IMG/VR virus record: IMGVR_UViG_3300025645_000147
Location: 1 to 42,394 of that record
DNA: 42,394 nt
Direction: 5' to 3' (one strand)
DNA from: a virus
A program made the position numbers and the translations under genes. The notes under the pieces are model-generated. The model had not been told where the DNA came from. It did no database searches and saw nothing but the letters and a program-made list of their open reading frames with translations. Positions 3,744 to 35,219 of the stretch are shown here, one piece after another (the stretch's first letter is position 1; each line of letters begins with the position of its first letter).

Positions 3744-4160
3744 TTAATTTTTTATGTTAACTGAAATAGGTAAGAACACCTTACCTGCTGTATACTGATT
3801 GACCCACAGCTTTTTAGTTCTAAATATTTCTTTGAGTTGCTTTTTATCTAAATTAAAGATCCAAGTTACTGGATTGGTTCTATCTATACGCTCACCAAAA
3901 GCAACTCCACCTGCACTAGCGCAAGCCTCAAGTCCCATCAAGCCTATTGTAACAGGCTGTAGATCTTCATTGAAGGTTAACTGCGTAACTGTAATACCTG
4001 ACGTTTCATAGAGTTGAGCTAATTCATTATCAGTCAATTCAAAACACATGCTATATGGAACCGATATGTTGTTTCTATGCTTGAAAATATATAAACTTTC
4101 ATAGTCTTCTTGGTCTTCAGCTAATACACAGTTGTGACCCGCAAATTTAAATGACTTCAT
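3744..4160 (-). CDS. Hypothetical phage protein (138 aa)
   Basis: This soluble 138-residue protein has mixed secondary structure. It has a Gly/Ala-rich central segment (LMGLEACASAGGVAFGERID) and no membrane or signal segments. I do not recognise it. Its ATG overlaps the stop of the dCMP deaminase gene (4157-4160), so the two are probably co-translated; whether it works with nucleotide metabolism is only suggested by position. Confidence 0.6.
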   Translation of the reverse strand: MKSFKFAGHNCVLAEDQEDYESLYIFKHRNNISVPYSMCFELTDNELAQLYETSGITVTQLTFNEDLQPVTIGLMGLEACASAGGVAFGERIDRTNPVTWIFNLDKKQLKEIFRTKKLWVNQYTAGKVFLPISVNIKN

Positions 4161-4558: not shown

Positions 4559-5942
4559 ACTTTTGTATTCTAGCTTTTACAGCATTAATTAATCCATCTT
4601 GTGATCTAGACTTTTTAGTTATGGCATTTCTTACATCCATGTCTATCGTCCTAACAGCTATAAGATGGTGAACTATAGTTATATCTTTTTGACCTTGCCT
4701 ATGAAGCCTAGCATTTAACTGCTGATACAGCTCAAGTGACCATGTTTGTCCGAACCATATTATAGTACTACCTCCTTTCTGGAGATTAAGACCATGGCCA
4801 CCTGAAGCTGGATGCATCATAAGAACTTGTATTTTTCCGTCATTCCAATCTTTAATGTCTTTTGTCTCTTTTAAATCTCTAGGCTTGTATTTCTTCAATC
4901 TCTCGTGTAGTCTGTACATATCATGCCTATACGTCCACGCAATAAGAATAGGCTTTCCGTTGTTCTGCTCTATGATCTCTTCTACAGCTTTTAACTTCAT
5001 GTCATGAACAGCGTGCCAATCTTTATTCTCGTCGTATACAGCTCCGTTAGCATATTGTAAAAGTTTATTGGATAGAGCAGCCGCATTAATAGCTGTTATA
5101 ACTTTATCATCTCCGTTTTCATCTTTGCCGAAGAACTCTAATACTTGCTCTTTCTCAAACTCGTCATACTTTCTCTGTGTCTCTAAATCCATTTTAACAT
5201 CTATAAAATTGTCTATTCTATCAGGTAGTTTCAAGTAGTCTTCCTTACGCATGCTTATACATATATCTTTTATCTTACTGGATATAATCTTCTCAGCTCC
5301 TTTCTTAAGTTTGTAAGAAAATATAACTTGCTGGTTACGCTTATTAGGCTCAAAATATATCCGCCTGTAATCACTTATTGTCTTTTCTAACCTTTCGCCT
5401 TTATCTAACAGGTATAGTTGGCTCCATAGGTCCAACAGACCATTTGGGGATGGGGTACCCGTCAATATAACCCGCCTAGAGAATGAACTGATTGTCTTTT
5501 TTAAAGCTTTGAACCTTATAGATTTAGGGTTTTTAAAGCTACTACTCTCATCCATTACAATCATGTCAAAAGGCAAATACAGTCCACCATATTGACTACA
5601 CAACCAAGCAATGTTATCTCTACCTATTAAGTATATATCTGATTTCTTAGTTAGAGCTTCTTTTCTCTGATTAGCTGTACCTGTGATAATAGTATAAGTA
5701 AGGTGATTTAAATGTTCCCACTCTGCTATTTCATCAGACCAAACATTCTCTGCAACTCTCTTAGGAGCTACAACTAAAACCCTAGATATATCTAACTCCT
5801 CATACATGAGTTGTTGAATTGCTGTTAGAGTTATAACAGTTTTGCCTAATCCCATGTCTAGGATCAAACCGCAACTAGGGTTATCTAAAATATGCTTGAC
5901 ATTATTTACTTGATACTCGTGCAATAATTTCTTTGACTTCAT
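4542..5942 (-). CDS. SNF2-family DEAD/DEAH-like helicase
   Basis: The protein has 466 residues and the motifs of an SNF2-type ATPase: Walker A DMGLGKT (residues ~29-35), a VMDESS Walker B variant (~133-138), LTGTPSPNG motif III, and the C-terminal RecA lobe with GHGLNLQ and QQLNARLHRQGQ (motif VI). Such proteins couple ATP hydrolysis to duplex translocation or remodelling and typically occur in phage replication modules beside a VRR-NUC nuclease, as here. The gene overlaps VRR-NUC by 41 bases. It probably assists replication-fork or recombination steps. Confidence 0.93.
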   Translation of the reverse strand: MKSKKLLHEYQVNNVKHILDNPSCGLILDMGLGKTVITLTAIQQLMYEELDISRVLVVAPKRVAENVWSDEIAEWEHLNHLTYTIITGTANQRKEALTKKSDIYLIGRDNIAWLCSQYGGLYLPFDMIVMDESSSFKNPKSIRFKALKKTISSFSRRVILTGTPSPNGLLDLWSQLYLLDKGERLEKTISDYRRIYFEPNKRNQQVIFSYKLKKGAEKIISSKIKDICISMRKEDYLKLPDRIDNFIDVKMDLETQRKYDEFEKEQVLEFFGKDENGDDKVITAINAAALSNKLLQYANGAVYDENKDWHAVHDMKLKAVEEIIEQNNGKPILIAWTYRHDMYRLHERLKKYKPRDLKETKDIKDWNDGKIQVLMMHPASGGHGLNLQKGGSTIIWFGQTWSLELYQQLNARLHRQGQKDITIVHHLIAVRTIDMDVRNAITKKSRSQDGLINAVKARIQKYAEFR

Positions 5943-6204
5943 CTATGAATTTTTTTATTGTATCGTGGTTATCAATCACCCTAACATCAAATCCCATATA
6001 GCGTAGTTTCCTATGATATACGAGTTGTAGCTTTCTAGGCTTTTCACCTGGAGCTTTTACTTCCACGAATATAACTAAACCAGTAGGAAATAAGCACATT
6101 CTATCAGGTATTCCACCTTCAAATTCAGCACTAAGCTTAATGCACCTACCTCCAATTTCTTTGACTTTCTTTCTTAGGTAGCTTTCTACTCTAGATTCTA
6201 ACAA
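5902..6204 (-). CDS. VRR-NUC domain nuclease
   Basis: This 100-residue single-domain PD-(D/E)xK nuclease has GIPDRMCLFP (catalytic Asp, residues ~30-40) and FVEVKAPGE (Glu-x-Lys, ~46-54), preceded by an N-terminal Glu-containing helix (LESRVESYL). Stand-alone VRR-NUC proteins of phages are Holliday-junction or structure-specific nucleases. Here the gene sits between the VapE-type helicase and the SNF2 helicase, overlapping both, in the order known from many Firmicutes phage replication cassettes. Confidence 0.92.
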   Translation of the reverse strand: MLESRVESYLRKKVKEIGGRCIKLSAEFEGGIPDRMCLFPTGLVIFVEVKAPGEKPRKLQLVYHRKLRYMGFDVRVIDNHDTIKKFIDEVKEIIARVSSK

Positions 6205-8557
6205 AATAACGTTGTGTGCCGTAAAGACTAAACTTCTTTACGCTGTTAATTAATGTCCAACCTTCCATTGATTTCATAACATCATTTACGGATCTGGTTT
6301 TATATCTAGTCATCTCATTCTTTTCTTTGCATAAACACTCACACCATATTTCAGCTACACATACAATATCACGTTGAATGTCACCTTTTCTGTCTTCGTC
6401 ATCAAAGTATATTCTTCGTTCGTATAAACCTAAACTGTCCCAGTTCCTAGGTAGTTTTATATCAAGGAATTGACCTATAACTCCTTTTCTTTCGTCATAA
6501 CCACTATGGCTACTTTGCTCTATTCTAGCTATCTTGTTTCCAGCTTCATTCAAGTATAGTTTCTCACCTCTCTTGTATCTAGCAACAGCCTCAGCCCACA
6601 TTTGATCTACGGTTTTCTCGTCTAAACCAAATATGTCTTTAGAGGCTTCCCTCATATTTATGTCTATAGGCATGAAACGTCTATTACCAGTAGGATCAGT
6701 TAAAAAATCCTTATTATTAGTAGTGCCTATAAACACACATTGTCTAGGAAACGTTTCTGTAGCTCTAGCATAAGCGGGTCTGAATGTATCTTCCTGTTTG
6801 GATATGAAGTGCTTAACTGATTCGATTTCAGCTTTTCTTAAACCAGCTAATTCAGCCATTTCTATTATCCAAGCTCCTTGTAGTTGTTCAAAAGAATCTT
6901 TGCCATTAACAGTATTGAACGAATCACTAAACCAATCTTTTCCTAGTTTCTTAGCTAAGGTACTTTTACCTGTTCCTTGTTTACCAACAAGGGTTAAAAC
7001 CAGATCGAACTTACTACCAGGCTTATATATTCTAGCAACAGCTCCGACCAATGTTTTTACTATGGATTGCCTTGTGTATTCATTGTTAGAGCATCCAAAA
7101 TAGTCTACAAGCAGCATATCAATTCTTTCAACACCGTCCCAACGTATATTGTCTAGGTACTTCTTAACTGGGTGGAAAGCGTGCTTTTGAAATATAAGAG
7201 CTAGTGAATCATCTATTTTGCTACTAGACACAATACCATAGATAGACTCTATGTAGTTTCTAATACCTGCATAGTCTACATTCTTTATAGGCTCTGGTTT
7301 AGCTACTTTTCTCCATGGTACGTCTCTGTAAATGTATCTTTTGTTATCAAACTGGTTGTATTTAAACACTTCCTTCAAGTGTGGATCATTGGTGAATATA
7401 AGGTTTAGATTCGTAGCTGATGAAAGGTATCTACCTTTAGTATCTATTACTAATCTTGATAGCCATTCATCTGGTTCATCTGGTTCATCCGGGACTTCAG
7501 GTTCAACAACATCAAAATCGTATTGAGCTCTGCTTATTATATCTTTAGCTATAGTCTTCTTTACTTTAGCGTCTCTTAACACTAACTTTTCTAACTCCTT
7601 GTAGCTCTTAGCTTCTTTGCCATCTTTCCTAAGTAGATCCATAGTGCCAAACAGGTGTATTCTTGCTAAATCCCAAGCATTACATAATCTACCGCTTATA
7701 GGATCTGTACCATGAAATGAAAAGCAAAAAAGATCGTCATATACAATCAATCCACCTGCTGTAGATCCATTTATATATGTGTATCTATCTTTATCTAACC
7801 TGTTGTATTTATCTTTAAGCAATCCATCTAATACCTCCGAAACTCCATAGGTCCTACAAAAAGCACCTACTATTCCTAGTTTCTTTCTTGGGTCCTGTTG
7901 CTTGTGCCTATTGAAATCTACAGTCTTCATAAACTTCTCTGATGTAGGCCAAGAGCTAGAATCTTTCCAATCCAAATAGGTATTCAGTACATCATCAACA
8001 TTAAGAAATTCACCTTTTTGATGTTTAACATAAAACTCTACGTCTTTAGAACATGAAGGCCAAAACATTAATCTACTAGCCTGAAAGGTAGTGTTGTCAA
8101 AATATTCTATGTTTATATCACCTGCTACTCTTCTAGCTAAAGCGACATATTCATCTGGTGCGACCTCTCTATTCAAAGGCATAATAAGTCTATACCGTGG
8201 AGTCTTGGCAGAATGTGAATGAGTTGAATGCAGGATAGCTTCATTTGTGAACAACTCCTTAAACTCATGCCAAACATCTAATGTGGCATAATCTAAATCC
8301 AGAGTTAGTATTTGCCTATGCATTACATTATCTGGTTTCCGTCTTCCTCCTCTTAGAAAACCTCCAACATAGCCACCGACATCTTTTATTTGTTGCCTTT
8401 CGTCTTTGGATGCCTGACTATATTCAACTTTAGTTTCTCTTGTTCTATGAGGTTTTAGTAGCTTATCTCTTATGTAAATCCAGCTCCATCTTTTATTAGC
8501 CCACTTTTTAGATTTATACGAGCGTCCCAAGCTTATATCCATAGTGCTTTCATGCAT
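6191..8557 (-). CDS. Primase-helicase, VapE/VirE family
   Basis: I choose the ATG at 8557, one base after the polymerase stop; an upstream in-frame ATG at 8599 would overlap the polymerase. The 788-residue protein has an N-terminal primase-polymerase-like part (LTLDLDYATLD with the Asp-x-Asp pair, and later RYRLIMPLNR) and a Pro/Glu/Asp-rich linker. The C-terminal VirE/VapE ATPase has Walker A GKQGTGKST, Walker B-like IIEMAEL, FIGTTNNKDFLTDPTGNRRF (sensor and Arg finger) and a winged-helix-like tail. It is probably the replicative primase-helicase that works with the neighbouring family A polymerase. Distinct domains on one chain argue against a simple VapE. Confidence 0.9.
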   Translation of the reverse strand: MHESTMDISLGRSYKSKKWANKRWSWIYIRDKLLKPHRTRETKVEYSQASKDERQQIKDVGGYVGGFLRGGRRKPDNVMHRQILTLDLDYATLDVWHEFKELFTNEAILHSTHSHSAKTPRYRLIMPLNREVAPDEYVALARRVAGDINIEYFDNTTFQASRLMFWPSCSKDVEFYVKHQKGEFLNVDDVLNTYLDWKDSSSWPTSEKFMKTVDFNRHKQQDPRKKLGIVGAFCRTYGVSEVLDGLLKDKYNRLDKDRYTYINGSTAGGLIVYDDLFCFSFHGTDPISGRLCNAWDLARIHLFGTMDLLRKDGKEAKSYKELEKLVLRDAKVKKTIAKDIISRAQYDFDVVEPEVPDEPDEPDEWLSRLVIDTKGRYLSSATNLNLIFTNDPHLKEVFKYNQFDNKRYIYRDVPWRKVAKPEPIKNVDYAGIRNYIESIYGIVSSSKIDDSLALIFQKHAFHPVKKYLDNIRWDGVERIDMLLVDYFGCSNNEYTRQSIVKTLVGAVARIYKPGSKFDLVLTLVGKQGTGKSTLAKKLGKDWFSDSFNTVNGKDSFEQLQGAWIIEMAELAGLRKAEIESVKHFISKQEDTFRPAYARATETFPRQCVFIGTTNNKDFLTDPTGNRRFMPIDINMREASKDIFGLDEKTVDQMWAEAVARYKRGEKLYLNEAGNKIARIEQSSHSGYDERKGVIGQFLDIKLPRNWDSLGLYERRIYFDDEDRKGDIQRDIVCVAEIWCECLCKEKNEMTRYKTRSVNDVMKSMEGWTLINSVKKFSLYGTQRYFVRI

Positions 8558-8558
8558 A

Positions 8559-10505
8559 CTAATCTTTTTTATAAAATGTTGACATAAAACCATCAGCACT
8601 AAGAGGTAAGCCCTTAGCCCATGGTATTTCCCTAGACATTATTCCGCACATGTCGTCTAACACTTCTTGCTCATTTGGTATTTCACATACGACTTCATCA
8701 TGTATGTGCATAGTTATCTTATAACCTTCATTGTGTAGAGACATCATACTAAATGCAAGTATATCTCTAGCAACAGCTTGAACTATGTTCTCAGTTAGTT
8801 TACCACCGTAAGTGTCAATGTATGTCCATTGCTTAGTCATACCGTCTACACCTTTGTATTGAACAGCTGTCTTGCCCCATCTGTTTTGACCTAACTTAGG
8901 TTCCCTGTAAAATAGTTCTCTTCCACTTGGTAGTTTAACTATAAAGTTCAATTTATCAGAGTAAAACTCTAGTCCATGGTTTCTAACAACTTTTCTTTTC
9001 TGGCTAATAGCGATCAAAGCTGCTTTTTCTACAGAATACCAGAACTTAACTATGTTAGGATTGGCTGTACGCCACTTCTTAACTATGAGTTTCATCTCCT
9101 CATCGCTAAGTCCCATAGACTCTCCACCCATTGCTTTTAAGGCTCCAAGTGATCCTTGATAACCTAAAGCTAATTCAGCTATCTTACCTTTTGTTCTTAG
9201 TTCAGATCCTTTTTCTATGCTTTCTATCGGTACATTAAACATCATGGAAGCGGAAGCTTCATAGATTTTACCGTGTGATTTGAATACGTCTAATCGCCAT
9301 TTTTCATCAGCAAGCCAGGCAATAACTCTGGCCTCAATGGCACTAAAATCAGCTACACCTAGAATCGTTCCTGGTGGTGCTATAAAAGCAGTTCTTATCA
9401 ATTGGGAAAGTAGAGAAGGTATATTGTCGTGGCAGTGTTTAGATTCTTCAATGTTCTTAGTTCTTATTATGTTTCTAGGTACGTCTATATCCTTAATGTA
9501 GTTTCTAGGTAGATTTTGCAATTGAACTAAACGTCCAGCCCATCTACCGGTTCTATTAGCTCCATAATATTGAAATAAACCTCTTACTCTGTTATCTTCA
9601 CTTGAGGCGCAATTCAACATCGATATGTATTTCTTGGTTGATGTCTTTGAGGATTTAGCTCTTAACTCTAAAACGTCCCTAACAGCACCAGGTTCGCATT
9701 CAGCGATAAGGCTATTTAACTTATCCTTAGCTAGACTTTTTATTTCGTTACCTGTTTGGATAGTCAGCCATGCTTTTATTTGAGCTGGACTGTTAGGGTT
9801 GTCTATTCCTGTTATGTCTTTTATTTTGCTTCTTATCTCACCTGACATGTGATCATCTAATCTGTAAGCCATTATAGCTAATTGCATATCCACTAGAACA
9901 CCGTTATCATTTATGATTTGATCTAAGATATAGTTTTTTCGTTCAAAATCAGAGATTTTATAAGCTGATAACTGCCTGTGTATCTCCCTCTCTGCTATAA
10001 CATCGCCTACGCAGTATTCTTTGAATTGCTCCCACTGTTTCTCGTCGTGGTGCCAAAAATTCCTTAGCCTAACTGATCTCTTATTAGTATTAGGCATACA
10101 GAAATATCTTATAAGAGCTCTACCTGTTTTTAACTTAGCTTTATCTGTTAGTTCTAAGGCTTTAGAAAGAGCTTCAAGGCCTAATGGTAATCCGCAGTAA
10201 GCAGCTTTAACCATAGTACATCTCCACTGATCTATAGGCACATCATAGCCTATAGCTTTTAATATGTTTCTTTCAAATGATGCATTGTGAGCGTATTTTT
10301 TTATGTTAGGATCCATCAAAGCGTCTGTGAACCTAAACGGTAACTTTTCTCCTTTAGCTAAATCTATTATTTGGACATTTTCATCATCAAAACAATAAGC
10401 TAACATGAGAATTTCAAAATCTAGCGAAGAAACATATTTGTATAAACCACTTGATTTAATGTCTATACTTGAATACGTTTCACCGTCTATATGGAGTCTA
10501 GGCAT
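8559..10505 (-). CDS. Family A DNA polymerase with 3'-5' exonuclease
   Basis: The polymerase has 648 residues from the ATG at 10505 (MPRLHIDGETYSS). A longer frame would need a TTG inside a hairpin. The N-terminal DnaQ/DEDD exonuclease has DGE (residues 7-9) and AHNASFER. The polymerase domain shows motif A ADFSAIEARVIAWLA, motif B with KGKIAELALGYQG, and motif C MHIHDEVVCE. It is compact compared with E. coli Pol I and lacks a 5'-3' exonuclease, like other phage replicative Pol A enzymes. It is flanked by DUF2815 upstream and the VapE helicase downstream. Confidence 0.95.
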   Translation of the reverse strand: MPRLHIDGETYSSIDIKSSGLYKYVSSLDFEILMLAYCFDDENVQIIDLAKGEKLPFRFTDALMDPNIKKYAHNASFERNILKAIGYDVPIDQWRCTMVKAAYCGLPLGLEALSKALELTDKAKLKTGRALIRYFCMPNTNKRSVRLRNFWHHDEKQWEQFKEYCVGDVIAEREIHRQLSAYKISDFERKNYILDQIINDNGVLVDMQLAIMAYRLDDHMSGEIRSKIKDITGIDNPNSPAQIKAWLTIQTGNEIKSLAKDKLNSLIAECEPGAVRDVLELRAKSSKTSTKKYISMLNCASSEDNRVRGLFQYYGANRTGRWAGRLVQLQNLPRNYIKDIDVPRNIIRTKNIEESKHCHDNIPSLLSQLIRTAFIAPPGTILGVADFSAIEARVIAWLADEKWRLDVFKSHGKIYEASASMMFNVPIESIEKGSELRTKGKIAELALGYQGSLGALKAMGGESMGLSDEEMKLIVKKWRTANPNIVKFWYSVEKAALIAISQKRKVVRNHGLEFYSDKLNFIVKLPSGRELFYREPKLGQNRWGKTAVQYKGVDGMTKQWTYIDTYGGKLTENIVQAVARDILAFSMMSLHNEGYKITMHIHDEVVCEIPNEQEVLDDMCGIMSREIPWAKGLPLSADGFMSTFYKKD

Positions 10506-10519
10506 GTTGAAAGGATTAA

Positions 10520-10549
10520 ATATAGGCTTGTAGTTATACAAGCCTATAT
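10520..10549 (-). promoter_or_regulatory. Perfect 13-bp hairpin before the polymerase gene
   Basis: ATATAGGCTTGTA and its exact reverse complement TACAAGCCTATAT flank a 4-base loop. The hairpin lies between the DUF2815 stop (10561) and the polymerase ATG (10505), 14 bases upstream of it, and is not followed by a strong U run. It may act as an attenuator, an mRNA processing or stability element, or a translational operator that sets polymerase levels. Confidence 0.6.
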
Positions 10550-20026: not shown

Positions 20027-20159
20027 TTTAAAATATTTTATATGATTAATAAATAGCCATTAAAAAAAACCTACCCTCTGGGGGGAAATGAAAGTAGATT
20101 CAATCTGGATGTTAATCCAGATTATGTTTTTATTTTTATTTTTAAATTATAATTTATTT

Positions 20160-20427
20160 GATGAAGTAAATATATATATAATATTTTAATAAAAAAAATT
20201 TTTTTAATATTATTTTTAAATTATTTTTAATATTATTTTATGATGTAAATATATATATAATATTTTAATAAAAAAAATTTTTTTAATATTATTTTTAAAT
20301 TATTTTTAAATTATAATATTAAATATATATGATTAAAAATAATTTTTTTATTTATTTTATGATGTAAATATAATAATAATATTTTAATAAAAAAAATTTT
20401 TTTAATATTATTTTTAAATTATTTTTG
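20160..20427. repeat. Three ~70-bp AT direct repeats with A/T tracts
   Basis: Near-identical copies start at about 20,160, 20,242 and 20,361. Each begins GATGNAGTAAATATA or GATGTAAATATA, continues with AATATTTTAATAAAAAAAA and a T7 tract, and ends TTTTTAAATTATTTTT. The paired A8/T7 tracts can form a hairpin or a bent segment. The copies are spaced 82 and 119 bases apart. Confidence 0.75.
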
Positions 20428-29343: not shown

Positions 29344-29768
29344 GTTTTCTAAATAAGATAAAAGGTTTAGGTTCATACATAATCAATAGGTCTAAGATCA
29401 TTGAAGAAGTATTGAATGAGCTTAAAGACGATATAGCTGAAATGAATAGGCAACAAATGCTTAGAGGAGAGACGAGTAAAGGAGGTCCTATACTACCTGA
29501 ATATGCAGACAGCTACTTAAAAACCAAAAGAAAATTAAGTCAACCGTCATACGTCACCTTATTTAAAACAGGTGATTTTCATAGTTCTATAAAAACTGAA
29601 GTGACTCGTAAGCGATTCGAGTTAATCGCCACAGATGAAAAAACAGAAAAACTATTAGCTAAATACGGTGAAGATGTTTTAGGTTTGAACGATCAAAACC
29701 TTAAGATAATAAAAGATAAAATAGCAGATAGACTAAATTCAAAATTCAAAGAAGCTATAAATGTATAA
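29340..29768 (+). CDS. Tail-completion / neck protein, gp10-like (142 aa)
   Basis: This basic protein has PEYADSYLKTKRKLS, LFKTGDFHSSIKTEV, and a YGEDVLGLNDQNLKIIKDKI tail. The pattern 'target-size, TGD(F) xxSI, then D-K-L-x-Y-G' is that of small neck/tail-completion proteins (virion morphogenesis type) in Bacteroidota phages. The start overlaps the upstream stop (ATGA). Confidence 0.65.
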   Translation: MSFLNKIKGLGSYIINRSKIIEEVLNELKDDIAEMNRQQMLRGETSKGGPILPEYADSYLKTKRKLSQPSYVTLFKTGDFHSSIKTEVTRKRFELIATDEKTEKLLAKYGEDVLGLNDQNLKIIKDKIADRLNSKFKEAINV

Positions 29769-30351
29769 TCCAGCGAAACCTATATTAGCAGATGCCGTTT
29801 ATTTCGATAAAGCTTTTGCTGAGATCGGTGATAAGCTTTCAACTGATTTAACATGGTTAACTAATAACTATGGAAGAGCTGAATACATACCCGAATTGGA
29901 TGATCTAGGGAAGGTCTATGGGAAAACCATATATTTCCCTGCAGTTTACGTCGGGGACCCTAAGAAGCCAACAGAATACCTCAGTATGATGCCAGATGAG
30001 CATCTTGATAACCACGTTTTCTTTTTACTAGAAGATGTACAAGAGATAAATCCTAGATTAGGAACTATAGGTAATATGAAATCTGAGTTCTCCATCATTT
30101 TTTGGTGGGACTACAGAAAGGTATATGTAGATCACCTTGTAAGATCTGTAGAGAATGTCAAGAAAGATATTTTAACTGTATTATTAAAAGCAGCTTTCAA
30201 AACATGCACATTGGATATTAAGTTTAGTTACGTTGATAACAAAAATGTCTATCTAAATTTTGAAGCTGATCAAGTTAATAGAAAGTACTTGATGCGCCCT
30301 TATGGCGGATTGAAATTATCTGGAACCATTAAATTAAACACGACATGTTAG
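29761..30351 (+). CDS. Tail terminator-like protein (196 aa)
   Basis: This is a mixed alpha/beta protein with MYNPAKPILADAVYFDKAFA, FPAVYVGDPKKPTEYLSMMP, SIIFWWDYRKVYVDHLVRSV and a C-terminal YLMRPYGGLKLSGTIKL. Position between the gp10-like and tail chaperone genes suits a tail-terminator or head-closure protein. The call is positional only. It overlaps the following small ORF by 7 bases. Confidence 0.6.
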   Translation: MYNPAKPILADAVYFDKAFAEIGDKLSTDLTWLTNNYGRAEYIPELDDLGKVYGKTIYFPAVYVGDPKKPTEYLSMMPDEHLDNHVFFLLEDVQEINPRLGTIGNMKSEFSIIFWWDYRKVYVDHLVRSVENVKKDILTVLLKAAFKTCTLDIKFSYVDNKNVYLNFEADQVNRKYLMRPYGGLKLSGTIKLNTTC

Positions 30352-30524
30352 AACAGTTATTACTTAGACTAGGATTTGTTAAACTCGATGTTCTTTTAAA
30401 GGAACGCCTAAAATCCTTTGAACTAGAAAAGAAACTAAAGAGAATTGAGGAAAAAAAATCCTTTGAACTAGAAAAGAAACTAAAGAGAATTGAGGAAAAA
30501 AAAACATTAGGCAAGATCTCTTAA
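30345..30524 (+). CDS. Short coiled-coil ORF, zero-frame product of a frameshift site (59 aa)
   Basis: It begins MLEQLLLRLGFVKLDVLLKE and holds two exact copies of SFELEKKLKRIEEKK, a Lys/Glu-rich coiled-coil heptad-like segment made by a 45-base tandem duplication. The ATG overlaps the previous stop by 7 bases, supporting its translation. It ends ...TLGKIS after a run of nine A (30,496-30,504). Slipping back by one base on A AAA AAA (30,497-30,503) joins residues 1-53 to the amidase frame. The product could be a stand-alone adaptor, the N-terminal domain of the amidase, or both. Confidence 0.7.
   Translation: MLEQLLLRLGFVKLDVLLKERLKSFELEKKLKRIEEKKSFELEKKLKRIEEKKTLGKIS
30411..30500 (+). repeat. 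45-bp tandem duplication in the coiled-coil ORF
   Basis: Two copies (30,411-30,455 and 30,456-30,500) encode SFELEKKLKRIEEKK. Each copy ends in GAGG plus an A run: eight A at 30,451-30,458, nine at 30,496-30,504. The second is the candidate slippage site. Confidence 0.85.
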
Positions 30525-31075
30525 CTAACCACAACCGGCCTGCTCTCAAGAATCCTAAATTCTATAGAATAAGAGAAGTAAAGGCTATAGTATTACATTG
30601 GACAGCGAACCTAAACAATGGCGCAAATGCAAAAGCAAACAGGGACTATTTCAATAGCACACAAAGGAAAGCCAGTGCGCACTTTATTGTAGATGAAAAA
30701 GAAGTAATACAATGTTTACCGCTTAATGAAGTGGCCTATCATTGTGGAGATAGAAACCACCGAATTTTAAAAAAGGACGTGAAAAAATATGGGTACACTA
30801 AATTTGGTTATTCCCTTTTGGATGAAAAAAGATTAACCCCAAATTTCTATACTATAGGGATTGAAATGTGTGTAAACGAGGATGGTGATTTCAAAGGAAC
30901 TTTAAGGAGAACAGTAAAATTAATTCGATACCTTAAAAGCATTAATGGTAATGTTCCTTTAGTCCGACATTATGATATAACAGGCAAAAAATGCCCAAAA
31001 CACAAAGTCTTAGGTACTTGGAAACTACTAGATAAAAGGCCTTGGAAAGAATTTAAAAAAGCATGTGAACTATGA
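30503..31075 (+). CDS. N-acetylmuramoyl-L-alanine amidase domain, no start codon of its own (frameshift product)
   Basis: The frame is open from 30,494 but has no ATG, GTG, TTG or CTG until GTG 30,731, which lies after the first zinc His. The domain is Amidase_2/T7-lysozyme-like: VLHWTAN (zinc His), SAHFIVDEKEVIQCL, EVAYHCGDRNH, IGIEMCVN, and VRHYDITGKKCP, in which His and Cys stand eight apart with a Lys two before the Cys, as His122, Lys128 and Cys130 of T7 lysozyme. It should cut between MurNAc and L-Ala. With a -1 shift the fusion is 53 + 190 = 243 residues. Downstream is the tail chaperone gene (ATGA overlap). Confidence 0.85.
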   Translation, partial: NIRQDLLTNHNRPALKNPKFYRIREVKAIVLHWTANLNNGANAKANRDYFNSTQRKASAHFIVDEKEVIQCLPLNEVAYHCGDRNHRILKKDVKKYGYTKFGYSLLDEKRLTPNFYTIGIEMCVNEDGDFKGTLRRTVKLIRYLKSINGNVPLVRHYDITGKKCPKHKVLGTWKLLDKRPWKEFKKACEL

Positions 31076-31803
31076 AAGAAGTAAAGCACAAAGGTCATAC
31101 GCTAGTCATGTACGATAGCATTGATGATCTACCAATAAGAAGATTTCAAGCACTCAATTTGAACCTAGCACTTGATGCTGGTATAGGTTCTGATCAAGAA
31201 GCTGTAACTAGACATTCAGCAATGATACGTAAGTTTATACAAGCTGGTCAAACTGAAGAAGCCTTAGTGCAGTTGAATAACTACGAGCAGTGTTTAACTT
31301 TTATAGTTCAAGGTATAAATCCTAAGCTATTTTCTTTCGTGTGCCTATTACACAAACTAGATGGAAAATTAATTACAGATTTAACTGAAGAGGGTATAAA
31401 GCAAACATTAGATAAGATGGATATAGCTAATCACAGCTTTATAACGAATCTTATGCTTGAAGCTAAAAAAAAACTTTATCAGGAGCTAGAAATATGTTTC
31501 CCAAAACTTTCCAAAGGGACAAACGAGACTAGATACTGGAACGCACTAAAAAACAATGTTATCTATAGGCTTAAGAAAGTAGCAGGACAAGAGGTAGATG
31601 ACATGTTAGAAAAAATAGAACTAGGTTTATTGAATATAGTTAAACCTAAAATATATGCTGGGACTACGGGAATAGAGGTTAAAAACAAGAAGAGTTTTGA
31701 GAACCTAAGTACTAAAGTGGATAAGGAATTTAACGTAAATACGAACGATCTTAATGTTTTTCAGTTTTATAGCAGAGTAGAACAGTTAATGAATAAAAAA
31801 TGA
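31072..31803 (+). CDS. Tail assembly chaperone candidate
   Basis: This soluble 243-residue helical protein sits immediately before the tape measure gene, where siphoviruses encode tail chaperones. It has LVMYDSIDDLPIRRFQALNL, EALVQLNNYEQCLTFIVQGI and FSFVCLLHKLDGKLITDLTE. A run of nine A (LEAKKKLYQEL) lies mid-gene in frame, but there is no long overlapping -1 ORF at the 3' end, so a classical G/GT arrangement is not evident. Function by position. Confidence 0.6.
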   Translation: MKEVKHKGHTLVMYDSIDDLPIRRFQALNLNLALDAGIGSDQEAVTRHSAMIRKFIQAGQTEEALVQLNNYEQCLTFIVQGINPKLFSFVCLLHKLDGKLITDLTEEGIKQTLDKMDIANHSFITNLMLEAKKKLYQELEICFPKLSKGTNETRYWNALKNNVIYRLKKVAGQEVDDMLEKIELGLLNIVKPKIYAGTTGIEVKNKKSFENLSTKVDKEFNVNTNDLNVFQFYSRVEQLMNKK

Positions 31804-34800
31804 GTAATCCAGTAACTAATAGCCAGCTTTACAAAGATGACGGTAAACTCAAAGAGCTGTTAAAAACGCTCAAAGAGATACAAACTGTGTATGCAACTAT
31901 GTCTGATGGCATAACCAATAAAGCTAAGGCATTAGAATTAGCTCTCAATGGCGTTAATCTTAAGACTGATGAAGGTAGAAGAGCTTTAAAAGAAGCTGCA
32001 GCTGAAACTAGTAGATTAGAAAAATTAACAGTTAAGTACAACAGAGCTTTAAGCAATAATGCTGTAGATGTGGCTAGAGTTAATGAAGAGATAAAGAAAC
32101 TAAATAGACACAACAAATTACAAGCTACTATAGTTAATTCAACAGCTACTAGTTATAATAGATTAAAAGCTACATACGACAGTAATATACAAAGGCTTAA
32201 AGCTCTTAGCCAAGGTACTAGAGACAATACAGCTGAAGGCCAGAGATTAATCCACGTCACTCAAAGAATGAAGAATGAATTGAGACGACTGGATGATCAG
32301 TTTGGTCGTAATAGGCTTAGTATGATAGAACAGAATACATCTGCTTCTAGGCTTTGGGGATCACTTAAGAATTTAGTGTTAACTTATCTATCTATAACTA
32401 CGGTGATGAGACTCGCTAATAGCGTGTTTAGAAACACTAAAAGTATAGATTCATTAAATTTTGCTTATAATCAAGTTATCGATACTAGTGCTGAGCTTGT
32501 AAGATCTCAGCAATTCATAAAGGACATTACAACTGATTTAGGTTTAGATTATATATCTACGTCTAAAGCCTATTTAAAGTATAGAGCTGCTATAAAATCC
32601 ACTAACTTAACAATAGAAGAATCAGATAAGATATTTACTAGTTTCGCTAAGGCATCAGCTGTATTAGGTTTATCAACTTCAGAAAACAAAGGTGTGTTCT
32701 TAGCCTTAGAGCAGATGATTTCCAAAGGTAAGATTAGTTCAGAGGAATTAAGACTACAATTAGGTGAAAGAATGCCAGGTGCTTTGGATATATTTGCTAA
32801 GAGTATGGGAGTGAGTGTAATGACCTTATCAGACATGCTTAAGAAAGGAGAGGTTATAAGTGCAGAAACTTTACCTGCATTCGCTAGAGAACTTGAAAAA
32901 GCATATAATATAACAGACGTTAAAACAGTAGATACCTTAACAGCAGCACAAAACAGATTGAATAGAGAATGGGTATTGTTTGTAGAATTTCTAGAAGGTA
33001 GCGATGCAATAAAGAGAGTATTTGATTCACTTAGAGAAGGTTTAGTTTTTATCAGGAGTAATTTCAGCACTATTGTTAATCTTACTAAAGGAGTAGCTTT
33101 AGTTGCTTCAGCTTTTGTATCATGGCACGCAGCTTTATTAATCACTAATGTAGCACAGAGGTTATCTATAGGAGCGACTATAGCTGATATAGCAAGTAAA
33201 GGTTTATTAGCTGCAGCTACAGGAGCAGCTGCAAGAGCTCAAGCTGCATTCAACCTAGTTTTAAAAAATAATCCTTATGCCTTAGTGGCAACAGTATTAG
33301 CGACTATTATATCTGGTTTAGTCTTATTTGAAGAAAGAGTAGATAAAACAAAAGAAAGTTTAAAAAATATCTCTGTACAAGCTGAGCAGAGTATAGTGGC
33401 CGCTAAGCTAAAGACTGAAGCTCTAGTAGAAGTTCTTAAGGATGAGAATGCTGAAAGAGAAGATAAAGTAAAAGCTCTCAAAGAGCTAAAGAAGATAAAT
33501 AAAGATTATTTTGGTGCTTTAGACACAGAAAAAAGCAAGATAACTGATATTGATGATGCTTTAAAAAGTTATAGTGCTTCTATCCTAGTGGCTGCTAAGG
33601 CTCAAGCTGCTATTAATCGTATAATTCAACTGGAGCAGGAACTTTTAGACACAGACAAACTATGGGAGGAATCAGAAACTTCTCTTCTAGACTATGCAAC
33701 AGCTGCAATAAAAAGTGGAGGCAATATATTCTTATTAGAAAACAGGCTACAAATACAAAGAGCAAAGAATTTCCAAGAGAGGAAAAATCAGATAGAGGAA
33801 GAAATAGCTGCTTTAGGTATCTTAGCAGATCCAAAAAATATAATACCAATTAGTACTATAACTGATGACGATGACGATGACGATGACGACGATAAAGGAA
33901 AGACTGATAAGCAATTAGAAGCTGCTGAAAAGCAGATAACTAAAATGAAAGACCTAGCAGCTGAAGGTCAAGCTATCCTTGGAGGTAAAGCAGCAGAAGC
34001 CAGATTGGAGTACGACAAGACAATACGCAAGATAGATGACATGAAAGCTAAACTAGCTGAGTTCAACAGAGACTTCAAGATGGATGTCAAAGTGGACTTC
34101 TCTCCAACAGTGCAAGTGGCTGATATAACCTTAGCTCGTAAGTTAGATGAATTGTTATTTGCTGAAAATGATAAGATTAAAGATGGTTTCGATATACTCG
34201 AAGAGCAAATAAGAAAAGGTTTAAAGTTTTCAGTACAATCACCTTTAGAAGAAGAATTAGCTAAAAGCATACCTGAATCATTCCTAGCTAAGAATGAAGC
34301 TAGAGCAGATGAATTAAAAAAGGCTGTAACTTCTACATTTGAAGATGATGTAAAGGATGAAGGGCTATTTGCAGCTATTGGTTTTAAGCTAGGTTTAGAT
34401 GAAGATGAAATCAAAGGATTACAGACTACTTTTAGCTTTGTGAAGAAACAATTAACCTCTTTAGCTAGTTTTAGAAAGAAAATAGCTGATCAAGAGGTAA
34501 CCAACTCTGCTAATGAAGTGAGATCTAAGGAAACAGCTCTTAAAAATGAGATAGCTAATAGGAATGCAGGCTATGCTCATAGTGTAGAATCTGCTACAAG
34601 AGATTTAGATTTAGCTAAAGATACCCAGAAAAAAGCATTAAAAGAACAGGAAAAGGCTCAGAAGCAACAACTAGCTGCTCAAGCTGTGCAAGAAGCTGGA
34701 AACCTAGTAGGAGCTGCAGCTAAAATATGGTATCAGCTAGGATTTCCTTTTGCTATACCAGCAATAGCACTTATGTTTGGTACTTTTGCAGCAGTTAAAT

Positions 34801-35219
34801 TAAAAGCTGCTCAACTATCTAAAAAGAAGTTTAGTACTGGTGGTTATGAAAAGCTTGGAGGTGGATCGCATGCAAGTGGAAAGGACACATACTTAGGTTT
34901 TGAAAGTGAGGGGAAACCAGCATTCGCTGAGAAAGATGAAGGTATAGCTATATTTAATAAAAAAGCTGTTAACAAATATGGTGATATTATACCTCAACTT
35001 GTAGAGTCTGCTAATAATCTACAGCTACATAATGTAATGGATAGACAGCAAGTTATAGCTAAAAGAATAAGTGTACAAGTCAATAATATATCTGATAATG
35101 CTAAAATGGAGTATTACTTAATGCAATTACTAGAGAATAGTAAGAATAGTTCTTACAACGAGAAAGACGGAACACCAGTAATAACTAGAAACAATGTAAC
35201 TCAAAGAGTCCATGGCTAA
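31800..35219 (+). CDS. Tail tape measure protein
   Basis: At 1139 residues this is the longest gene. The N-terminal ~200 residues are coiled coil. Residues ~217-370 match the tape-measure N-terminal domain (TIGR02675-like): TDLGLDYISTSKAYLKYRAA, SAVLGLSTSENKGVFLALEQ, MISKGKISSEELRLQLGERM, PGALDIFAKSMGVSVMTLSD. Hydrophobic segments follow near 420-510, then more coiled coil, an unusual run of ten Asp at residues 689-698, and a hydrophobic stretch near 960-990. The length suggests a ~170 nm tail if 1.5 Angstrom per residue applies. It sets tail length and may form the DNA channel. Confidence 0.93.
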   Translation: MSNPVTNSQLYKDDGKLKELLKTLKEIQTVYATMSDGITNKAKALELALNGVNLKTDEGRRALKEAAAETSRLEKLTVKYNRALSNNAVDVARVNEEIKKLNRHNKLQATIVNSTATSYNRLKATYDSNIQRLKALSQGTRDNTAEGQRLIHVTQRMKNELRRLDDQFGRNRLSMIEQNTSASRLWGSLKNLVLTYLSITTVMRLANSVFRNTKSIDSLNFAYNQVIDTSAELVRSQQFIKDITTDLGLDYISTSKAYLKYRAAIKSTNLTIEESDKIFTSFAKASAVLGLSTSENKGVFLALEQMISKGKISSEELRLQLGERMPGALDIFAKSMGVSVMTLSDMLKKGEVISAETLPAFARELEKAYNITDVKTVDTLTAAQNRLNREWVLFVEFLEGSDAIKRVFDSLREGLVFIRSNFSTIVNLTKGVALVASAFVSWHAALLITNVAQRLSIGATIADIASKGLLAAATGAAARAQAAFNLVLKNNPYALVATVLATIISGLVLFEERVDKTKESLKNISVQAEQSIVAAKLKTEALVEVLKDENAEREDKVKALKELKKINKDYFGALDTEKSKITDIDDALKSYSASILVAAKAQAAINRIIQLEQELLDTDKLWEESETSLLDYATAAIKSGGNIFLLENRLQIQRAKNFQERKNQIEEEIAALGILADPKNIIPISTITDDDDDDDDDDKGKTDKQLEAAEKQITKMKDLAAEGQAILGGKAAEARLEYDKTIRKIDDMKAKLAEFNRDFKMDVKVDFSPTVQVADITLARKLDELLFAENDKIKDGFDILEEQIRKGLKFSVQSPLEEELAKSIPESFLAKNEARADELKKAVTSTFEDDVKDEGLFAAIGFKLGLDEDEIKGLQTTFSFVKKQLTSLASFRKKIADQEVTNSANEVRSKETALKNEIANRNAGYAHSVESATRDLDLAKDTQKKALKEQEKAQKQQLAAQAVQEAGNLVGAAAKIWYQLGFPFAIPAIALMFGTFAAVKLKAAQLSKKKFSTGGYEKLGGGSHASGKDTYLGFESEGKPAFAEKDEGIAIFNKKAVNKYGDIIPQLVESANNLQLHNVMDRQQVIAKRISVQVNNISDNAKMEYYLMQLLENSKNSSYNEKDGTPVITRNNVTQRVHG

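Follow-up and report, generated by a model that had tools for sequence, protein, structure and literature searches.

The 42,394-nt window (the whole stretch of DNA analysed here) is a tailed phage record in which terminase, portal, head, tail and tape-measure families were matched by profile searches. The phage records that have tail genes in common with it (45 and 75 records) name hosts that are almost throughout Bacteroidota. Within the tail module, an amidase lies between a gene of the phrog_8145 family and a gene of the phrog_8914 family, the latter being followed by the tape measure. The features of the locus are as follows.

29761..30351, + strand: tail-module gene of the phrog_8145 family (unknown function), its end overlapping the ATG of the 59-codon ORF
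30345..30524, + strand: 59-codon ORF, rich in Lys, Glu and Leu and coiled-coil-like by eye; the 0-frame that enters the A9 tract
30410..30454, + strand: 45-bp perfect tandem repeat, copy 1 (15 codons, frame kept)
30451..30458, + strand: A8 tract, at which a -1 slip leads to a TGA after two codons
30455..30499, + strand: 45-bp perfect tandem repeat, copy 2, extending into the A9 tract
30491..30493, + strand: TGA, the final amidase-frame stop ahead of A9
30494..31075, + strand: Amidase_2 (N-acetylmuramoyl-L-alanine amidase) frame, XlyA/PlyL-like, without a canonical start
30496..30504, + strand: candidate A9 slippage tract with the in-frame heptamer A_AAA_AAA at 30497-30503
30506..30508, + strand: ATT codon, a rival non-AUG start, one to two codons past the Met position of the stand-alone relatives L014-L016
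31072..31803, + strand: phrog_8914 gene adjoining the tape measure, annotated in some records as tail assembly chaperone
31465..31473, + strand: second A9 tract, AAA AAA AAA in the 0-frame, at the conserved run of the phrog_8914 family
31800..35219, + strand: tail tape measure protein (profile matches)

The amidase frame opens after the TGA and comprises 193 residues and a stop, with the A9 tract beginning 2 nt past its opening. The original prediction held that this frame has no ATG, GTG, TTG or CTG ahead of the first zinc His, and its coordinates were reproduced: the first ATG, GTG or TTG is the GTG at 30731, past that His, and CTG is also absent before it as judged by eye. The 59-codon ORF runs from the ATG at 30345 to the TAA at 30522-30524, ending 20 nt past A9, and the amidase frame is -1 relative to it. 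As had been proposed, a -1 slip at the heptamer, or one A added on the A9 tract, leads into the amidase frame, and the -1 product consists of 53 + 190 = 243 residues. The 45-bp duplication carrying A8 and A9 runs was also recovered, as a perfect tandem repeat at 30410-30499.

The encoded protein matches Amidase_2 (PF01510) with 68.8 bits against a curated cut-off of 26, over profile positions 3-130 of 131. Residues H35, H159 and K165 are invariant in the seven aligned sequences, and C167 is present in the window and in contig L003; following T7 lysozyme, we take the two His and the Cys to be the zinc ligands and the Lys to be catalytic. Judged by its sequence, the protein is a member of the Amidase_2 zinc amidases, for which zinc binding is predicted. 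Its nearest solved relatives, by sequence as well as by predicted fold, are XlyA and PlyL/PlyG, which share the fold and sequence of the Amidase_2 catalytic domain and, unlike the window amidase, are stand-alone chains. The structural model has a mean pLDDT of 72, with 23 residues under 50, and so is of moderate confidence; it contains a predicted strand at residues 5-7. The Met of the stand-alone relatives L014-L016 aligns with residues 3-4 of the open amidase frame, the match to XlyA sets in at residue 5 of the XlyA chain, and similarity to these stand-alone amidases begins directly at the A9 tract. Since the homology begins there, the start of the amidase is expected at or near A9, where no canonical start is found.

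The window contains a single Amidase_2 match, and the amidase is the only clear lysis protein among the 40 window ORFs scanned with PHROGs, a scan that left out two large minus-strand ORFs (6191-8599 and 8559-10541) and several small ORFs. The tape measure shows a weak match (E 2.5e-4) to phrog_971, which is labelled endolysin. Among the phrog_8145 loci listed, the slot between the phrog_8145 and phrog_8914 genes usually holds a protein of 80-90 residues, annotated as DUF1360 in one record, in which a CxxC motif and a pair of hydrophobic stretches can be made out by eye; a membrane role for this small protein, which takes the place of the amidase in most loci listed, is conceivable. An amidase frame occupies the slot in six of the best 80 of 125 phrog_8145 loci, all from the two lineages described here; L019 and L020 stop inside the slot and L026 stops before it. 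Profile searches placed an Amidase_2 gene elsewhere in the genomes of P2559Y and BKO1-3 and gave no Amidase_2 match in P2559S or TCUEAP2.

The length of the A run was compared with that in other contigs. Near-identical DNA was not found among phage records; three further IMG/VR contigs covering the site (3300000116_000095, 3300022072_000085 and 3300000101_000053; loci L002, L008/L019 and L020), with 0-1 mismatches to the window over 3.8-8.6 kb, all carry A9, neither the ten nor the eight A that had been named as speaking against the proposal. Homopolymers are error-prone, and a homopolymer or assembly error that hides a gene in frame would account for the junction. A sequencing slip is not likely, because the three contigs bear different metagenome numbers and have the same run, and A9 is also present in the five contigs of the second lineage described below. 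An error at this site is thus considered very improbable.

This second lineage (L003-L007) carries the same amidase in the same slot. The DNA of the two amidases is near-identical for about 400 nt from the zinc His on and diverges near the end. The upstream ORF in the second lineage has 80 codons (L003 3777-4019) and a sequence dissimilar to that of the 59-codon ORF; neither matched a PHROG at E<=1, and searches with either of them found their own lineage only. The amidase is again -1 to the upstream ORF, and an A9 tract (L003 3846-3854, ATC AAA AAA AAA GCC) is again located at the edge of the open amidase frame. The run has nine A in five of five second-lineage contigs, hence in nine of the nine contigs covering the site when the window is counted, and the fusion after a slip has 264 residues (a count from the sequence). 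The duplicated coiled coil, which had been regarded as part of the set-up, did not hold up as such: both the repeat and that sequence are absent from the second lineage, and the 45-bp repeat was dropped as a component of the mechanism. A 9-nt sequence shared upstream, AGAATTGAG, was considered as a trace of an ancestral in-frame link of the two N-termini and proved too short to use. In L003, the amidase is directly followed by an additional ORF (4578-4856; 92 codons), which is Lys/Glu-rich and coiled-coil-like; in the window the phrog_8914 gene adjoins with no ORF in between.

A third amidase lineage was not found by searches with the window amidase and A1 over viral contigs, by the A1 search of genome contigs, which gave one distant Lachnospiraceae match, or through the phrog_8145 neighbour (best 80 of 125 loci). 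A degenerate DNA pattern returned 31 loci (L140 among them being the contig of L013), all with an amidase ORF and none with an A run replacing the start. As a control, 36 other amidase loci, several of them near-identical, were examined. Only L137 is likewise devoid of a start ahead of the zinc His; no A run is present at its junction, which resembles a seam left by recombination or assembly.

Between the lineages, the 23 codons before the zinc His show a dS of 1.01 and a dN of 0.12, while the part after it shows a dN of 0.074 and a dS of 0.102, i.e. few changes and constraint that is not strong. The core at about 30590-31000 is near-identical to L003 DNA; the neighbouring proteins of the two phages are only 41-49% identical. 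The segment before the zinc His is, by these rates, under purifying selection, and its dN of 0.12 against a dS of 1.0 argues that it is translated. The pattern also suggests that the amidase core was recently exchanged between the lineages. With cores that share recent ancestry, the loss of the amidase start in the two lineages may have been one event, which counts against reading the junction as a site of slippage, as does the consideration that the window would show the same picture if a longer run had lost 1 nt and the gene had been crippled by it.

The latter scenario, in which one base lost from the A run cut the amidase from its start and the gene is becoming a pseudogene, draws on the ease with which A runs mutate, on the 45-bp repeat as a sign of recent instability and on the weak constraint past the zinc His. 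It is nevertheless considered quite unlikely, given that the domain is intact and scores above the Pfam cut-off, that the segment before the zinc His has diverged at silent sites with its protein conserved, and that two lineages with different junctions are in the same state, with A9 in all nine contigs.

Initiation at a non-canonical codon, most likely the AUU at 30506, with the upstream ORF acting only as a leader, would also yield an amidase of fitting length. In the stand-alone relatives L014-L016 the Met lies one or two codons ahead of the position aligned with the AUU, the 5' context is A-rich, Bacteroidota initiate translation without strong Shine-Dalgarno pairing, and a GTG at 3881, 9 codons past A9, would serve in the second lineage. 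Against this, AUU is a very rare start codon, the codon aligned to it is ATC in the second lineage, and such a start leaves unexplained why A9 stands at the edge of the open frame in the two lineages; this explanation is considered unlikely. The -1 frame of the second lineage is open over 54 codons, through the entire overlap, an outcome kept in 0.4-0.5% of draws when the 0-frame was resampled synonymously and in 13.5% when codon order was shuffled. On resampling, the part from A9 to the GTG stayed open in 24% and the part after GTG 3881 in 1.8%, and these openness tests do not discriminate well between entry at A9 and a start at GTG 3881.

The placement of the run was then weighed against its background frequency. 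A9 by itself is not rare in the AT-rich window (with both strands counted, 5 overlapping matches against 3.74 expected), and the in-frame heptamer A_AAA_AAA is rarer than expected (7 observed, two of them in the 59-codon ORF, against 13.0 +/- 3.6 in codon shuffles). Its position is what stands out: the tract starts at the 3rd nt after the last amidase-frame stop in the window and at the 8th nt in the second lineage. With 0.163 runs of at least nine A per kb across 68 related loci, the chance of such a run starting within about 10 nt of the frame edge is about 0.0016 in each lineage and about 3e-6 in both, an estimate that is post hoc, assumes an even spread of runs and is overstated since both ORFs are Lys-rich. 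The odds are too favourable because Lys-rich ORFs promote A9: at the AAA share of 0.62-0.75 among the Lys codons of the chaperone genes (L002 and L003), three consecutive AAA would arise by chance in 0.24-0.42 of KKK stretches. That A9 is not rare and is promoted by Lys-rich ORFs counts against the slippage reading. Elsewhere in the window, four A8 runs lie within some 340 nt (20062-20403) of a region with few long ORFs, and three of these runs pass straight into T7.

The strongest context for reading the amidase A9 as a working site is the conserved A run in the neighbouring phrog_8914 gene. In the window, this gene carries A9 in frame at 31465-31473, from which a -1 slip ends after 19 codons and a +1 slip after 4. 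The 84 loci with a match to the family represent 65 distinct proteins, 62 of which cover the site (L031, L034 and L096 end before it). Three Lys codons followed by I, L or V are found at the site in 58 of these 62. Two more are split genes with A8 (L010/L084) or A9 (L092) at the site and no KKK in the first ORF, and the remaining two (L046; L082/L083/L085) have no A run and an unsplit ORF; these two relatives count against the slippage reading. The Lys codons were scored as AAA AAA AAA in 57 of the 58 KKK sequences, the exception being L059, in which the first KKK was scored and the second reads ATTAAAAAAAAACTT.

A non-redundant set of 48 sequences (less than 90% alike by crude ungapped comparison, drawn from 58 of at least 200 residues, with kinship ignored in the counts) was used for comparison with other columns. 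AAA-AAA-AAA was present in all 46 with Lys at the site, two of the 48 being without Lys. Of the 52 further conserved columns that were compared, not one had a single codon throughout, and AAA was used in 22/43, 30/44 and 9/41 sequences at other conserved Lys columns. Runs of 9-11 A were observed in nine further phages, namely B40-8, FpV9, tant8-1, BF486P2, PD482P1, BF698P3, BF486P1, AS73P1 and C1_85S2P. The phrog_8914 gene is split into two frames in P2559S (L010/L084), in the P2559S-like L092 and in L072, the first ORFs covering profile positions 1-133, 1-134 or 1-146 and the second ORFs 132 or 133 to 244-245; the break therefore falls at the A run. A -1 slip ends after at most 27 codons in 57 of the 58 KKK sequences (exception L072) and a +1 slip after at most 24 codons in all 58, with L059 read elsewhere, at its first KKK. 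In AT-rich DNA, stops at such short distances would arise by chance, and they carry no weight alone.

The phrog_8914 gene lies directly before the tape measure and carries a conserved A run, as would be expected of a tail assembly chaperone of the lambda G/GT kind, and the gene is split at the run in three relatives, two of them P2559S-like. The lambda gpG-T system had been invoked as the model for the amidase junction; its nearer counterpart is this second A run, and the amidase is unrelated to lambda G or T. In lambda, a frameshift site in a chaperone gene that serves the tape measure gives a short and a long product, as described in PMC5009743. The long form is the 0-frame in most phrog_8914 relatives, where, unlike in lambda, a slip would give the short form. 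A joined (frameshifted) gene at the site is marked in none of the 13 phage annotation tables; P2559S is annotated with two separate genes and BF486P1 with no gene at the site. Taken together, these sequence comparisons make it very probable that recoding at A runs is used by this Bacteroidota phage family in its tail-chaperone-like gene, with a primary product that varies, and programmed slippage in the tail chaperone, of a polarity mostly inverted relative to lambda, is likely.

Two mechanisms could act at the amidase run. In both lineages, an A9 is present from which the downstream frame is reached by one added A, as in RNA-polymerase slippage; in the window and in L003, a 0-frame X_XXY_YYZ heptamer lies inside the overlap with its target in -1, as in a -1 frameshift cassette. 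Hairpin-type folds of the 60 or 90 nt after the tract were in neither lineage clearly better than those of shuffles (window, z 0.08 and -0.15; second lineage, z -1.37 and -0.69). The heptamer and A9 put forward earlier as directing -1 frameshifting or slippage are present, and a stimulatory downstream structure was not found. Classical -1 ribosomal frameshifting of the lambda G/GT type, operating with no polymerase slippage, is a sub-case of the slippage fusion and does not compete with it. It agrees with the presence of A_AAA_AAA in frame at each of the two junctions, but no downstream structure stands clearly above shuffles in either lineage, the phase of the run differs in three relatives of the neighbouring gene, and the A8 of P2559S could not be served by a -1 shift, although this case is one phage, present twice, and may be a sequencing error. 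Ribosomal shifting as the only mechanism is considered doubtful. Because a stimulatory RNA structure was not found and the A runs of the next gene stand in differing phase in three relatives, the analysis leans towards polymerase slippage as the first choice and ribosomal shifting as the second, the same 243-residue fusion being predicted from both.

Of the explanations weighed, production of the amidase as a slippage fusion accounts best for the locus and is, on the evidence of the sequences compared, likely. The amidase frame would form the second half of a gene expressed by slippage, and a slip on A9, in transcription or in translation, is probably the only way in which the enzyme is produced. 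RNA polymerase (or the ribosome) would slip on the run, most simply with one A added, and a minority of the products would be fusions (243 residues in the window, 264 in the second lineage), the remaining product being a short peptide of 59 or 80 residues. Ribosomal -1 shifting on A_AAA_AAA may contribute beside polymerase slippage. Such an arrangement would hold the output of the amidase low and supply it with a new N-terminus. The amidase may act in the virion, as the position of its gene in the tail module would suggest, or in lysis.

Comparable arrangements are known from other systems. Efficient polymerase slippage in vivo on runs of nine A or nine T is described in PMC5009743, which also includes dnaX of Thermus thermophilus, with a run of nine, near stops in both other frames and two products, and the Shigella spa13 and IS-element orfA-orfB fusions, in which slippage appends a C-terminal part from another frame (in spa13, 58 codons are followed by a 112-residue extension). 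The dnaX site is closest in kind to that of phrog_8914; dnaX is, however, a DNA polymerase gene and not a phage gene, and its slippage leads to a short form, as against the long form that would result at the amidase. The spa13 and IS-element fusions concern other proteins and include no amidase.

A Lactococcus phage lysin, in a study cited by the PRFect paper, is reportedly made of two overlapping genes. The PRFect paper (PMC10885494) counts lysins among the genes known to contain a frameshift, the Lactococcus study being one of several that it cites. The mycobacteriophage Ms6 gp1-lysA pair, in which a lysin is tied to an upstream or overlapping ORF and frameshifting has been suggested, has a GTGA site and no A run, unlike the A9 of the amidase, according to PMC3111421. 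For two genes in the tail chaperone cluster of a phage, PMC3711429 gives measured frameshifting of 6-7%. In the literature surveyed, which was mostly without subscription papers and in part available as partial text, no report was found of an amidase made by A-run slippage, or of an A run in Bacteroidota tail-chaperone genes.

Slippage on A runs could be an expression device shared by these Bacteroidota siphophages, in which a short chaperone would arise from the long ORF and a mobile amidase would twice have been plugged in behind such a run, -1 to two unrelated N-terminal peptides, to be made only as a rare slippage product; the chances of this wider view are rated as even. The chaperone A run in B40-8, P2559Y and FpV9 offers a clear place to ask whether polymerase slippage takes the part that ribosomal frameshifting has in lambda. 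If the proposal for the amidase is true, a cell-wall enzyme wholly dependent on slippage would represent an unusual use of recoding, and this dependence would provide a simple restraint on a toxic activity.
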